Assembly (NCBI GenBank): GCA_019747075.1
Contig: JAIERF010000009.1
Coordinates: forward strand, 1 to 64,000
DNA from: Pseudomonadaceae bacterium
GTDB lineage: Bacteria > Pseudomonadota > Gammaproteobacteria > Pseudomonadales > Pseudomonadaceae
Length of the DNA: 64,000 nucleotides
Direction: 5' to 3'
The notes under the pieces are model-generated. The model saw nothing but the letters and a program-made list of their open reading frames with translations. It was not told the DNA's origin and did not search any database. Position 1 is the first letter of the stretch. Every line of letters begins with the position of its first letter. The translations under genes and the position numbers were made by a program. Shown one piece after another: positions 56,005 through 63,858 of the stretch.

Positions 56005-58113
56005 TTAAGCAGAAAGGACTTCAACCGGCACACCATTGAGCGCCGCATTGCCGGACAGCGCGTCCAGCAGGCGTTCATCAGTCAGGTCGTTGGCACTGGC
56101 GCCGGGCTGGGCGCGGGCAATGGCCAGCTGCACCCCCTGGCGACCATGGCCCCAACCGTGGGGCAGGCTGACGACGCCGGGCATCATATCGCTGCTGCTG
56201 GCGACCTCCACCTTAAGGCTGCCGACGCGCGAGCGCACGCGTACCCGCTGACCATCGGCCAGGCCACGGGCGACCAGGTCATCCGGGTGCATCAGCAACT
56301 GGTGACGCGGCTTGCCCTTCACCAGGCGGTGGTAGTTGTGCATCCAGGAATTGTTGCTGCGCACATGGCGGCGGCCGATCAGCAACAGCTGCTCGGGGTT
56401 GCCCACCGGCGCGTCGGCCAAACGCTGCAGGTCGGCCAACAACAAGGCCGGCGCCGCCTCGATGGTTTTACTCGCGGTCTTCAGGCGTGCCGCCAAGTTG
56501 GCCTTGAGCGGCCCCAGGTCCAGGCCATGGGGCTGCTCGCGCAGGGCGGCCAGGGAGAGTTTGTGCGCAGATTTGTCGCCATAGGGGCCAAAACGCAGGC
56601 CCATGTCGATCATCTGCTCCGGGGCTATGGTCGACTTCAGCTCAGCACCGGTGTGCGCGGCAAACGCCTTGGCCAAGCCGACAAAAATCTCCCAGTCGTG
56701 CAGCGTACCCTCGGGTTTGGCCAACACCGCCTCGTTGAAGCGGGTGACGTTGCGCACCGCGAAGGCATTAAAAGTGGTGTCGTAGTGATCGTGTTCCAGG
56801 GGCCCGGTGGGCGGCAGGATCAGGTCGGCGAAGCGGCTGGTCTCGTTGATGTAAAAATCCAAGCTGAGCATAAACTCCAGACCGCCCAACGCCTGCTCCA
56901 ACTGCCGACCATTGGGCGTCGACAGCACCGGGTTGCCGGCCACGGTGACTAGGGCGCGAATCTGCCCCTCACCCGGAGTGAGCATTTCTTCCGCGAGGGC
57001 CGCCACCGGCAGTTCGCCGCTGTATTCCGGCAGGCCGGACACACGGCTTTGCCAACGGTTGAAATGGCCGCCCGAGGTGGCCGCGACGATATCCACCGCC
57101 GGCTCGGTGCAGAGCACGCCACCCACCCGATCGAGGTTGCCGCTGACCAGGTTGATCAGCTGCACCAGCCACTGGCACAAGGTACCGAAGGCCTGGGTGG
57201 AAACCCCCATACGGCCGTAGCACACCGCCTTATCGGCGCTGGCGAAATCCCGCGCCAGTTGGCGAATGGTCGCCGCTGGCACGCCACAGCGGGCGCTCAT
57301 GGCCTCGGCGGTAAAGCCGGCAATGGCGCTGCGTACGGCGTCCAGATCACTGACCGGCAAATGGCTGGCGCGGGTCAGGCCCTCGTCAAACAGGGTATTG
57401 AGCAACCCGCAGAGCAGCGCAGCATCTTCGCCGGGGCGGACAAACACGTGCTGGTCGGCAATAGCCGCCGTCTCGCTGCGCCGCGGATCGACCACCACCA
57501 GCTTGCCACCGCGCTTCTGGATGGCCTTCAGGCGTTTCTCCACGTCCGGCACGGTCATGATGCTGCCGTTGGAAGCCAGCGGGTTGCCGCCGAGAATCAG
57601 CATGAAATCGGTGTGATCGATATCGGGGATCGGGATCAGCAAGCCGTGGCCGTACATCAGGTGGCTGGTCAGGTGGTGAGGCAGCTGGTCCACCGAGGTG
57701 GCGGAAAAACGGTTGCGGGTTTTCAACAAGCCAAGGAAGTAGTTGCTATGGGTCATCAGCCCATAGTTGTGCACGCTGGGGTTGCCCTGATACACCGCCA
57801 CCGCGTTCTGCCCGTGGCGCGCCTGAATATCGGCCAGGCGCTCGGCCACCAGATTGAACGCCTCGTCCCAGCCTAGCGCCTGCCACTCGCTGCCGATCCG
57901 ACGCATCGGTTGGCGCAAGCGGTCGGGGTCACTCTGGATATCCTGCAGGGCCACGGCCTTGGGGCAGATATGGCCACGACTGAAGCTGTCTTCAGCGTCG
58001 CCCTTAATCGACACGATCTGCACCTGGCCAGCAGCGTCGGCCTCGGTCTGGATGGTCAGGCCACAGATGGCCTCGCACAGGTGGCAGGCGCGGTGATGCA
58101 GGGTTGTGCTCAT
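56005..58113 (-). CDS. Molybdopterin oxidoreductase family protein
   Basis: 'HRACHLCEAICGLTIQ' 4Fe-4S ligand motif; 'AVYQGNPSVHNYGLMTHSNYFL', 'GGNPLASNG'. Confidence 0.93.
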   Translation of the reverse strand: MSTTLHHRACHLCEAICGLTIQTEADAAGQVQIVSIKGDAEDSFSRGHICPKAVALQDIQSDPDRLRQPMRRIGSEWQALGWDEAFNLVAERLADIQARHGQNAVAVYQGNPSVHNYGLMTHSNYFLGLLKTRNRFSATSVDQLPHHLTSHLMYGHGLLIPIPDIDHTDFMLILGGNPLASNGSIMTVPDVEKRLKAIQKRGGKLVVVDPRRSETAAIADQHVFVRPGEDAALLCGLLNTLFDEGLTRASHLPVSDLDAVRSAIAGFTAEAMSARCGVPAATIRQLARDFASADKAVCYGRMGVSTQAFGTLCQWLVQLINLVSGNLDRVGGVLCTEPAVDIVAATSGGHFNRWQSRVSGLPEYSGELPVAALAEEMLTPGEGQIRALVTVAGNPVLSTPNGRQLEQALGGLEFMLSLDFYINETSRFADLILPPTGPLEHDHYDTTFNAFAVRNVTRFNEAVLAKPEGTLHDWEIFVGLAKAFAAHTGAELKSTIAPEQMIDMGLRFGPYGDKSAHKLSLAALREQPHGLDLGPLKANLAARLKTASKTIEAAPALLLADLQRLADAPVGNPEQLLLIGRRHVRSNNSWMHNYHRLVKGKPRHQLLMHPDDLVARGLADGQRVRVRSRVGSLKVEVASSSDMMPGVVSLPHGWGHGRQGVQLAIARAQPGASANDLTDERLLDALSGNAALNGVPVEVLSA

Positions 58114-61312: not shown

Positions 61313-61523
61313 GAGCCTGCCTCCTCGCCATTGATGCCTGCAGTGTGGCCGCAGCGGTGCACGGCCGCCCGTTACAGCGGAAGCTTTTTCCACAATCACA
61401 GTTCGTCAACTGCACTGCCCTGGGTCCACCCTGCACACACGGGCGCCACGGCAGTGCAGCCCGCGTCATAAAAACCACGCAAAACTGTAACAATTTCATT
61501 GAAAATCAACACACTAGGAAAAA

Positions 61524-61539
61524 TGGCACGCTCCCTGCT
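61524..61539 (+). promoter_or_regulatory. Candidate sigma54 (RpoN) -24/-12 promoter
   Basis: TGGCAC-GCTCC-CTGCT, correct GG-GC spacing; one mismatch to TGGCAC-N5-TTGCW. Confidence 0.65.
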
Positions 61540-61554
61540 AAGACCCATCCCGGT

Positions 61555-61592
61555 CAGCACAAAGGCGTGTCTGCCAACCCGACAACGACGTC
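61555..61592 (+). ncRNA. Candidate ANTAR-type two-hexaloop antitermination leader
   Basis: CAGCAC-AAAGGC-GTGtCTG and GAC-AACGAC-GTC: two adjacent hexaloops, each with A1 and G4; second stem overlaps the terminator stem. Confidence 0.6.
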
Positions 61593-61640
61593 ACGAAGCC
61601 TCGCATCTAACGGATGCAGCGGCTCGTGACGTTTTTTTTT
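61588..61640 (+). terminator. Leader (attenuator) terminator upstream of the porin gene
   Basis: acgtcacgaagcc...ggctcgtgacgt stem followed by T9, ending ~25 bp before the porin ATG. Confidence 0.85.
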
Positions 61641-61665
61641 GCGTTTTGGCACAAGGAATACCGAC

Positions 61666-62949
61666 ATGCGTATCCACACTCTTTCTGTTCTTTCTCTGGC
61701 CGTTTGCGGCGCCTTTAGCAGCATTACCATGGCCGCCGAGGACCTCGCCAACCTGGTCGACTACGGCAAGGTCAGCGTCGATGCCCGCTACCGCTACGAG
61801 AACGTCGACCAAGACAACACCCTCAACAATGCCAACGCCCAGACCCTGCGCACCCGTATCGGCGTGCAGAGCGGCAAGTGGTATGGCCTTTCCGGCCTGG
61901 TTGAGGTCGACAATGTCAGTCGTATCGGTGATGCCTCTTACAACAACACCCGCGACGGTCAGAAGGACTTCTCCGTGGTCGCCGACCCGGATGGCACCGA
62001 GTTCAACCAGGCCCTGCTGCGCTATGACTACAAATACGGCAACGCCGTGGCCGGCCGTCAGCGCATCAACCTCGACAACCAGCGCTTCGTCGGTGGCGTG
62101 GCCTGGCGCCAAAATGAACAGACCTATGACGGTGTACTCGGCCAGATCAAGCCGATCACCGGCATGACCCTGACCTACAGCTACCTCGACAACATCAACA
62201 CCATCTTCGGTCCAGACAACGGCCGCTACGACAATAAGACCAACCCGGCCAACATCGAAGGCCACAGCCACCTGTTCAATGCCCAGTACATTCTCCTGCG
62301 TGATCGCCGTGGCGCACCGCAACTGACCCTGACCGGCTACAGCTACCAACTCGGCCTGGACAACATCGCAGTAACCGCTGCCGCCCCGGTGGGCAGCCTT
62401 TCCAGCCGCACCAACGGCGTACGTGCCACTGGCGCCATCGGCGCCTTGAGCATCGTCGGTGAATACGCGCAACAGGAAGACTACGCCGATAACCCGCAGG
62501 AACTGGACAGCGACTACTACCTGGCCGAACTGGGCTACACCTGGCAGGGCATCGTGTTCAAGGGCGGCTACGAGGTACTCGGCGGTGACGACGGCGTCGG
62601 CAACCGCGCCTTCCAGACCCCGCTGGCGACCAAGCATGCTTTCCAGGGCTGGGCCGACGTGTTCCTTACCACCCCGGCCGATGGTATCGAGGATACCTAC
62701 GTCGGTGTCACCGCACCGCTATGGGGTGGCCAGTTGCAGGCCTGGTACCACGACTTCGACGCCGAGCAGAACAGCACCCGCTACGGCGACGAGATCGACC
62801 TTTCCTACGGCCACCCCATTCCAGCCGTTCCGGGCCTGACCGCGCTGGTGAAATACGCCAGCTACGATGCCGACACCGCAGTGCTGCGCGGCAACGTGGC
62901 CAACGTCGACACCGACAAGCTCTGGCTACAACTGCAGTACGTCTACTGA
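61666..62949 (+). CDS. Outer membrane porin (alginate export/OprD-like beta-barrel)
   Basis: Signal peptide; 'KVSVDARYRYENVDQDN...TLRTRIGVQSGKWYGLSGLVEVDNV'; C-terminal aromatic 'LWLQLQYVY'. Confidence 0.85.
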   Translation: MRIHTLSVLSLAVCGAFSSITMAAEDLANLVDYGKVSVDARYRYENVDQDNTLNNANAQTLRTRIGVQSGKWYGLSGLVEVDNVSRIGDASYNNTRDGQKDFSVVADPDGTEFNQALLRYDYKYGNAVAGRQRINLDNQRFVGGVAWRQNEQTYDGVLGQIKPITGMTLTYSYLDNINTIFGPDNGRYDNKTNPANIEGHSHLFNAQYILLRDRRGAPQLTLTGYSYQLGLDNIAVTAAAPVGSLSSRTNGVRATGAIGALSIVGEYAQQEDYADNPQELDSDYYLAELGYTWQGIVFKGGYEVLGGDDGVGNRAFQTPLATKHAFQGWADVFLTTPADGIEDTYVGVTAPLWGGQLQAWYHDFDAEQNSTRYGDEIDLSYGHPIPAVPGLTALVKYASYDADTAVLRGNVANVDTDKLWLQLQYVY

Positions 62950-63072: not shown

Positions 63073-63858
63073 ATGCGTCTATCCCTGCGCCACCTGTTTC
63101 TCACTACCCTGCTCAGCCTAACCAGTCAGCCCAGTTGGGCTGTCATCAGTGATGCCGAAGCGATGAACCTGTCCGGCATGCAACGCATGCTCAGCCAGCG
63201 CCTGGCCAAGACTTATCTGATGATCGGCTCCGGCGTGCGCGCCGAGGTCGCCAATGAGCAATTCGATCAGAGCCTGGCCAAGTTCGAGAGCAACTACCAA
63301 GCCCTCAATGACTATGCCCCCAACGATGCCATTCGCCAGGAACTGGCGCACGCCGGCGACCTCTGGCACACCTACCGGCAATTGCTGCTCACCAGCCCCA
63401 GCCGCCAAACTGCACCGCAGGTGCTGCTGGTCAGCGACCAGTTACTGGCGCCGTGCGAGAAAGTCGTGCAATTGATTCAACAACACACCGGCAGCACCTC
63501 AGCGCTGCTGGTCAATCGCAGCGGCCGCCAGCGCATGCTCAGCCAGCGGATTGCCAAGCTCTACCTGGCACAGAGCTGGCACCTACCGGTCGCGGGGCTG
63601 GACCAGCAGTTCCAGCAGGCCGTCGAGGAGTTCGACAAGGCCCTGGGCGAACTGCAAAACGCCGAGCAGAACACCCCGGCCATCAAGCAGGCACTGCAGA
63701 AAGCCGAAGCACAATGGAGTTTCTCCCGCGCGGGCTTTCGCCTGTCCGGCGACGCGCGTTATGTGCCGACCCTGATCACCACCACCACCGAAACCCTGCT
63801 GCGGCAAATGCAAGACCTCACCAGCGCCTATGAAGGGGTGATGCTGGCCGGCTCTTAA
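63073..63858 (+). CDS. Periplasmic protein with two PilJ/NarX-type N-terminal sensory-like repeats
   Basis: Signal peptide; 'LSGMQRMLSQRLAKTYLMIG' and 'RSGRQRMLSQRIAKLYLAQS'. Confidence 0.8.
   Translation: MRLSLRHLFLTTLLSLTSQPSWAVISDAEAMNLSGMQRMLSQRLAKTYLMIGSGVRAEVANEQFDQSLAKFESNYQALNDYAPNDAIRQELAHAGDLWHTYRQLLLTSPSRQTAPQVLLVSDQLLAPCEKVVQLIQQHTGSTSALLVNRSGRQRMLSQRIAKLYLAQSWHLPVAGLDQQFQQAVEEFDKALGELQNAEQNTPAIKQALQKAEAQWSFSRAGFRLSGDARYVPTLITTTTETLLRQMQDLTSAYEGVMLAGS

Follow-up and report, generated by a model that had tools for sequence, protein, structure and literature searches.

An OprD-like porin gene and the double-PilJ gene behind it, on a Pseudomonas contig, are with high probability controlled by a NasT-type (ANTAR) antitermination leader that stands behind a sigma54 promoter, as judged from the sequence and its relatives. 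The promoter, the two hexaloop hairpins (P1 and P2) and the terminator overlapping P2 are real, and occupy 61524-61640 of the window, that is, the whole stretch of 64,000 nucleotides that was analysed. The window is a part of contig C398 (86.6 kb), which belongs to a Pseudomonas genome of 2.88 Mb and 77.9% completeness; its porin has its closest named relatives in P. fluvialis (89%) and, closer still, in the MAG Pseudomonas sp. PGPPP3 (98%). The features are listed in Table 1; a molybdopterin oxidoreductase gene is also found near the porin gene (56005-58113, minus strand).

Table 1. Positions in the window of the leader elements and of the two genes downstream.
Feature	Position	Strand	Basis or remark
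Inverted half-sites TGCACT...AGTGCA	61411-61458	+	Putative enhancer with NtrC-like half-sites
sigma54 -24/-12 promoter TGGCACGCTCCCTGC	61524-61538	+	Read in the sequence
Hairpin P1, CAGCAC[AAAGGC]GTGtCTG	61555-61573 (loop 61561-61566)	+	A1/G4; sequence, folding and RF03032 match
Hairpin P2, GAC[AACGAC]GTC	61581-61592	+	A1/G4; 3' arm common with the terminator
Intrinsic terminator, stem and T9	Stem from about 61588; T9 61632-61640	+	Excludes P2
Porin ATG	61666	+	Downstream of the terminator
Outer-membrane porin, 427 aa, OprD/Occ-like barrel	61666-62949	+	Open reading frame and predicted structure
Double-PilJ protein, signal-like N-terminus	63073-63858	+	Pfam PilJ, 2.5e-22

ANTAR proteins bind two hexaloop hairpins with A at loop position 1 and G at position 4 (A1/G4), each with a stem of at least 3 bp, and the second hairpin overlaps a terminator (PMC3369931). 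The leader in the window is built in this way, with two A1/G4 hexaloop hairpins on stems of at least 3 bp and an intrinsic terminator overlapping P2. Upstream of them, the -24 and -12 elements of the sigma54 promoter follow the TGGCAC-N5-TTGC-like pattern and carry the conserved GG and GC at fixed spacing. An earlier sequence-only reading had placed this promoter at 61524-61539; both elements are present, but the -12 element ends at 61538, and transcription would be expected to start at about 61549-61550. The same reading had described two adjacent A1/G4 hairpins and had proposed that P2 and the terminator exclude each other, and both points are borne out by the folding. Without the 3' arm of the terminator, RNAfold forms exactly P1 and P2, at the positions in Table 1, and with this arm included the terminator forms and P2 is lost. 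The stem of P1 is lengthened by GG/CC pairs to 61552-61575, and a folding energy of -28.5 kcal/mol (z -6.7) is obtained for the terminator by itself. When both strands of the 64 kb were scanned for a composite pattern (TGGC[AC]N7TGC plus the hexaloop pair), one match was found, whereas 300 dinucleotide shuffles gave 0.087 matches on average, and with a T6 run added to the composite, none of the 300 shuffles gave it. The main evidence for the leader, as seen in the sequences, is its conservation at 34 porin loci rather than this rarity.

The porin comparison set comprised 80 homologs from named genomes together with loci of the window's own genus. The composite leader is found at 34 of the porin loci with nearly constant spacing, and its position ahead of the porin ATG is constant among the orthologs. 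Conservation of A1/G4 in orthologous leaders had been named as a check of the idea, and A1/G4 is kept in both loops at 33 of the 34 loci. The sole leader with an altered loop 2 is L084 (4851-4971), where the loop reads AACAAC and G4 is lost. Two ANTAR genes are present in G090, apparently the same genome as that of L084. Among 33 distinct leaders, the core CGG-CAGCACAA-GGCGTGTCTGCC and CCGACAA..ACGTC are almost invariant and the promoter elements TGGCA and CTGC are unchanged; the variable parts are the promoter spacer between these elements, the stretch from promoter to P1, and the terminator arms. All eight pairs of P1 are unchanged in 33 sequences, and so is the three-base-pair stem of P2. 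Consequently, covariation within P1 and P2 of the porin leaders is uninformative. As for the terminator, 98.7% of the cells in its outer 9-bp stem are paired, and three pairs have changed on both sides in a compensatory way. The stem of P2 had been regarded as a weak point; it does have 3 bp, but it is invariant, reaches 4 bp in some orthologs and agrees with the published minimum (PMC3369931).

Could the hairpins be passive, forming just a stray terminator or a simple attenuator, so that the sigma54 promoter is the sole site of control? The strength of the terminator and its closeness to the gene would suit this explanation, but the terminator arms drift across the 33 distinct leaders whereas the P1/P2 core is near-invariant in them, the interval between promoter and terminator contains no gene, and the composite is common to nas operons, so that we consider passive hairpins very improbable. 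EutX and Rli55 are decoys of ANTAR systems, and the terminated leader might likewise act mainly as a small RNA titrating NasT. Judged from its anatomy, such an RNA would bear ANTAR-type hairpins and would be made whenever sigma54 is active; however, P2 is destroyed by the terminator in the finished RNA, and a constant distance to the porin ATG is hard to reconcile with a decoy, which is thus scarcely credible as the main function. An antitermination leader acting on the porin operon is the reading that we retain.

Leaders of the same class precede nasST, nrtABC-type genes, a NarK/NasA-type transporter gene and nirB in relatives, where the names nasST, nrtABC, narK/nasA and nirB are our own assignments, made by recognising the sequences without a database match for each. 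The P1 stems of these paralogous leaders differ and yet are paired (ggtagcc/ggttgcc, cctgcc/ggcagg, caccAATGGCggtg, gatcgcc/ggtgatc and gcac/gtgt), and the loop rule is kept across them despite the differences in the stems. In P. resinovorans, a leader-bearing porin gene shares a contig with nasS and nrt genes, which adjoin it. Since the same leader stands before nitrate-assimilation operons, the signal would be nitrate/nitrite, sensed via NasS-NasT, and the porin very likely belongs to the nitrate-uptake programme of the cell. Nitrogen control of the porin, perhaps through nitrate/nitrite or amides, had been predicted; its nitrate/nitrite part is supported, but nothing points to amides. Another ANTAR protein, AmiR- or EutV-like, could in principle read the leader and make the porin answer to amides or ethanolamine, as the two-hexaloop rule is common to all ANTAR targets (PMC3369931) and a second ANTAR gene is present in some genomes. 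We give this explanation little probability, because many leader-bearing genomes have a single ANTAR gene, which is beside nasS where its surroundings were read, and because leaders of the same class precede nitrate genes, with the P. resinovorans porin inside an nrt/nas cluster.

With duplicates removed, an ANTAR gene is present in 31 of the 34 leader-bearing genomes that were searched for the domain, compared with 8 of the 17 genomes that have only leaderless porins. The three leader-bearing genomes without one are MAGs, including the window's own; in PGPPP3, the nearest relative, the ANTAR gene lies directly downstream of nasS. The Pfam ANTAR search of the window's own genome (77.9% complete) was empty, and the controls were also unmatched at that threshold; therefore, the genome was searched instead with NasT and NasS from the nearest relative. 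In the same incomplete assembly, NasT gave only weak, receiver-domain-like matches and NasS gave no match. The genome does contain nirB (C301:4067-6508, within locus L003, C301:4067-6678) with a leader of its own, composed of a sigma54 promoter (GGCACAACCCCTGC), two A1/G4 hexaloop hairpins (tcccg[ACAGAA]cggga and ggac[AAAGGC]gtcc) and an overlapping terminator with T8; its RF03032 score is only 20.6 bits. The presence of nirB with its own leader argues that the gap at nasST is due to incompleteness; on the simplest view, the organism does carry nasST and only the assembly lacks it.

A search with a covariance model had also been suggested for the leader, and an Rfam family of the same anatomy matches it below the gathering score. 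At gathering thresholds, Rfam gave no match in the window; at a relaxed threshold, the narK RNA (RF03032) matches 61525-61594 over all 72 positions with 34.7 bits (E 7.5e-5 in 601 bases; gathering score 43.2 bits). This is the only strong RF03032 match in its genome, and the orthologous porin leaders of two genomes pass the gathering score with 44.0 and 45.1 bits. The RF03032 consensus, GGCaCAgcucUUGCU ... CCAACGGCGG ... ACGACAAAGACGUCGC, corresponds to a sigma54 promoter, the hexaloop AACGGC and GAC[AAAGAC]GUC, although only the first hairpin is drawn in the family structure. Its first 15 positions resemble the sigma54 promoter (61525-61538 in the window), so that this 'RNA' family probably includes some untranscribed sequence. 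From this arrangement, the family as modelled would start with promoter DNA and describe a NasT target. Across Pseudomonas, RF03032 precedes a NarK/NasA-type transporter gene.

Upstream of the promoter, inverted half-sites (TGCAC[TCG]-N20-40-[AGC][GA]TGCA, sought upstream of the -24 element) are present in 25 of the 33 leaders, a count inflated by shared descent, versus a mean of 0.11 and a maximum of 2 in 200 shuffles; of 50 upstream regions of leaderless loci, one has the pattern. The pattern mostly begins 101-116 bp before the -24 element, and the unit spans 48 bp in the window and 37 bp in many relatives. The strict NtrC consensus (TGCACC-N5-GGTGCA) was absent from the window in a pattern scan. 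NtrC is required for nasT and the nas genes in P. stutzeri (PMC8443478). We infer NtrC as the most likely activator of the porin promoter, with the reservation that the strict consensus is absent and that kinship inflates the half-site count.

Taken together, the following model is suggested, with the NasS-NasT chemistry taken from PMC3795266. When nitrogen is limiting, sigma54 RNA polymerase would start near 61550 with the help of an enhancer-binding protein, in all likelihood NtrC. With no nitrate or nitrite, NasS would hold NasT, the hairpin at 61588-61632 would fold, and the transcript would end in the U-tract. With nitrate or nitrite present, the freed NasT would bind the two A1/G4 hexaloops, hold P2 and block the overlapping terminator, and the porin operon would be transcribed together with the transporter and reductase operons bearing the same leader. 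Of this, the sequence elements with their conservation, the mutually exclusive folds, the shared regulon and the co-occurrence with an ANTAR gene are seen in the data; the start site, NtrC as activator, NasT binding, induction by nitrate and passage of nitrate through the pore are what we infer from them.

The porin has a weak Pfam match to Alginate_exp, below the Pfam cut-off. Foldseek matches its AlphaFold model (pLDDT 80.7) to Occ/OprD channels and to the MOMP of Campylobacter, with E-values between about 1e-13 and 1e-10. Some predicted strands bear invariant arginines two residues apart (i/i+2; R41/R43, R62/R64 and R131/R133); with this spacing they would share one face, plausibly that of the pore lining. 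The PilJ gene follows the porin gene in most of the homologous loci, and the two genes are likely in the same operon. The double-PilJ model (pLDDT 89.6) resembles the McpN nitrate-receptor domain (TM 0.75-0.77 on target, probability 1.00) and the nitrate antiterminator NasR (TM 0.58-0.59 on query, probability 1.00), with weak E-values of 0.05-0.27 for these structure matches; a sequence profile search gave McpN at 5e-9. The McpN N-box, [IVL][ND]xAGxQRML[ST]Q, is not matched by the double-PilJ protein, which has two near N-boxes, MNLSGMQRMLSQ and VNRSGRQRMLSQ, with S for A in both copies and M at position 1 of copy 1. The N-box arginine contacts nitrate in McpN (PMC6381276), and its counterpart in the double-PilJ protein is invariant in 25 sequences. 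By analogy, the protein is a probable periplasmic nitrate binder, and its two near N-boxes may form an intramolecular nitrate site in one chain, as in NasR.

In addition, 46 of the porin loci are leaderless, and 22 of them, mostly in Pseudomonadaceae, have an ANR-like box (TTGA[TC]-N4-[AG]TCAA) upstream, usually 68-80 bp before the porin start, versus none of the 34 leader-bearing loci (Fisher p 3e-7, uncorrected for relatedness). Homologs of narX/narL adjoin 13 of the 46 leaderless loci versus 0 of the 34. These boxes and narXL neighbours support a nitrate role of the porin family independently of the leader. Both forms of the porin are found in one genome in P. fluvialis (L060/L062), P. tumuqii (L070/L083), Pseudomonas sp. 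8AS (L078/L086) and P. borbori (L106/L077). Examples of leaderless paralogs with ANR-like boxes about 70-80 bp upstream are L062, L075, L077, L083, L092, L096, L100 and L103; the PilJ gene comes next in most of them, and several adjoin narK, narXL and a Crp/Fnr-type gene. In the second, leaderless porin copy of the window's own genome (on C333), the ANR pattern was not found.

There is, in our estimate, an even chance that the operon is a dedicated outer-membrane entry module for nitrate/nitrite, consisting of an arginine-rich porin and a periplasmic nitrate-binding partner, and existing in two paralogous forms, one under sigma54/NasT for assimilation and the other under ANR/NarXL for nitrate respiration. 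The paired assimilatory and respiratory copies would then illustrate clearly how a single uptake module can be rewired between nitrate programmes. The leader would carry the NasT regulon beyond the inner membrane and cytoplasm into the outer membrane, one candidate each for a nitrate porin and for a nitrate-binding partner can be named, and the narK RNA family of Rfam could be read simply as a NasT target behind a sigma54 promoter. NasT antitermination and RF03032 are already known, while the porin as a NasT target appears not to have been described. A literature search found no NasT-controlled porin, no nitrate porin and no relevant work on the narK motif, which is weak evidence, as most subscription papers were outside the search.

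Among the known systems, the NasS-NasT leaders of nas/nir genes in Azotobacter vinelandii, P. aeruginosa (nirBD), Paracoccus and Bradyrhizobium likewise have dual A1/G4 hexaloops and a terminator overlapping P2 (PMC3795266, PMC6759348), and those of Pseudomonas relatives also have a sigma54-type promoter like that in the window; the target is a transporter or reductase there, whereas it is a porin with a PilJ protein here. With RF03032, promoter, P1 and P2 can be aligned in sequence, but the leader in the window has a porin-specific P1 stem, a different downstream gene and a score below gathering. The leaders of EutV, NasR and AmiR follow the same dual-hairpin rule and terminator overlap (PMC3369931), and differ in signals, promoters and genes. 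Finally, the porin-PilJ operons with ANR-like boxes share homologous porin and PilJ genes with the operon in the window; in contrast, they have no leader but an ANR-like box instead, and some of them stand beside narXL or narK.
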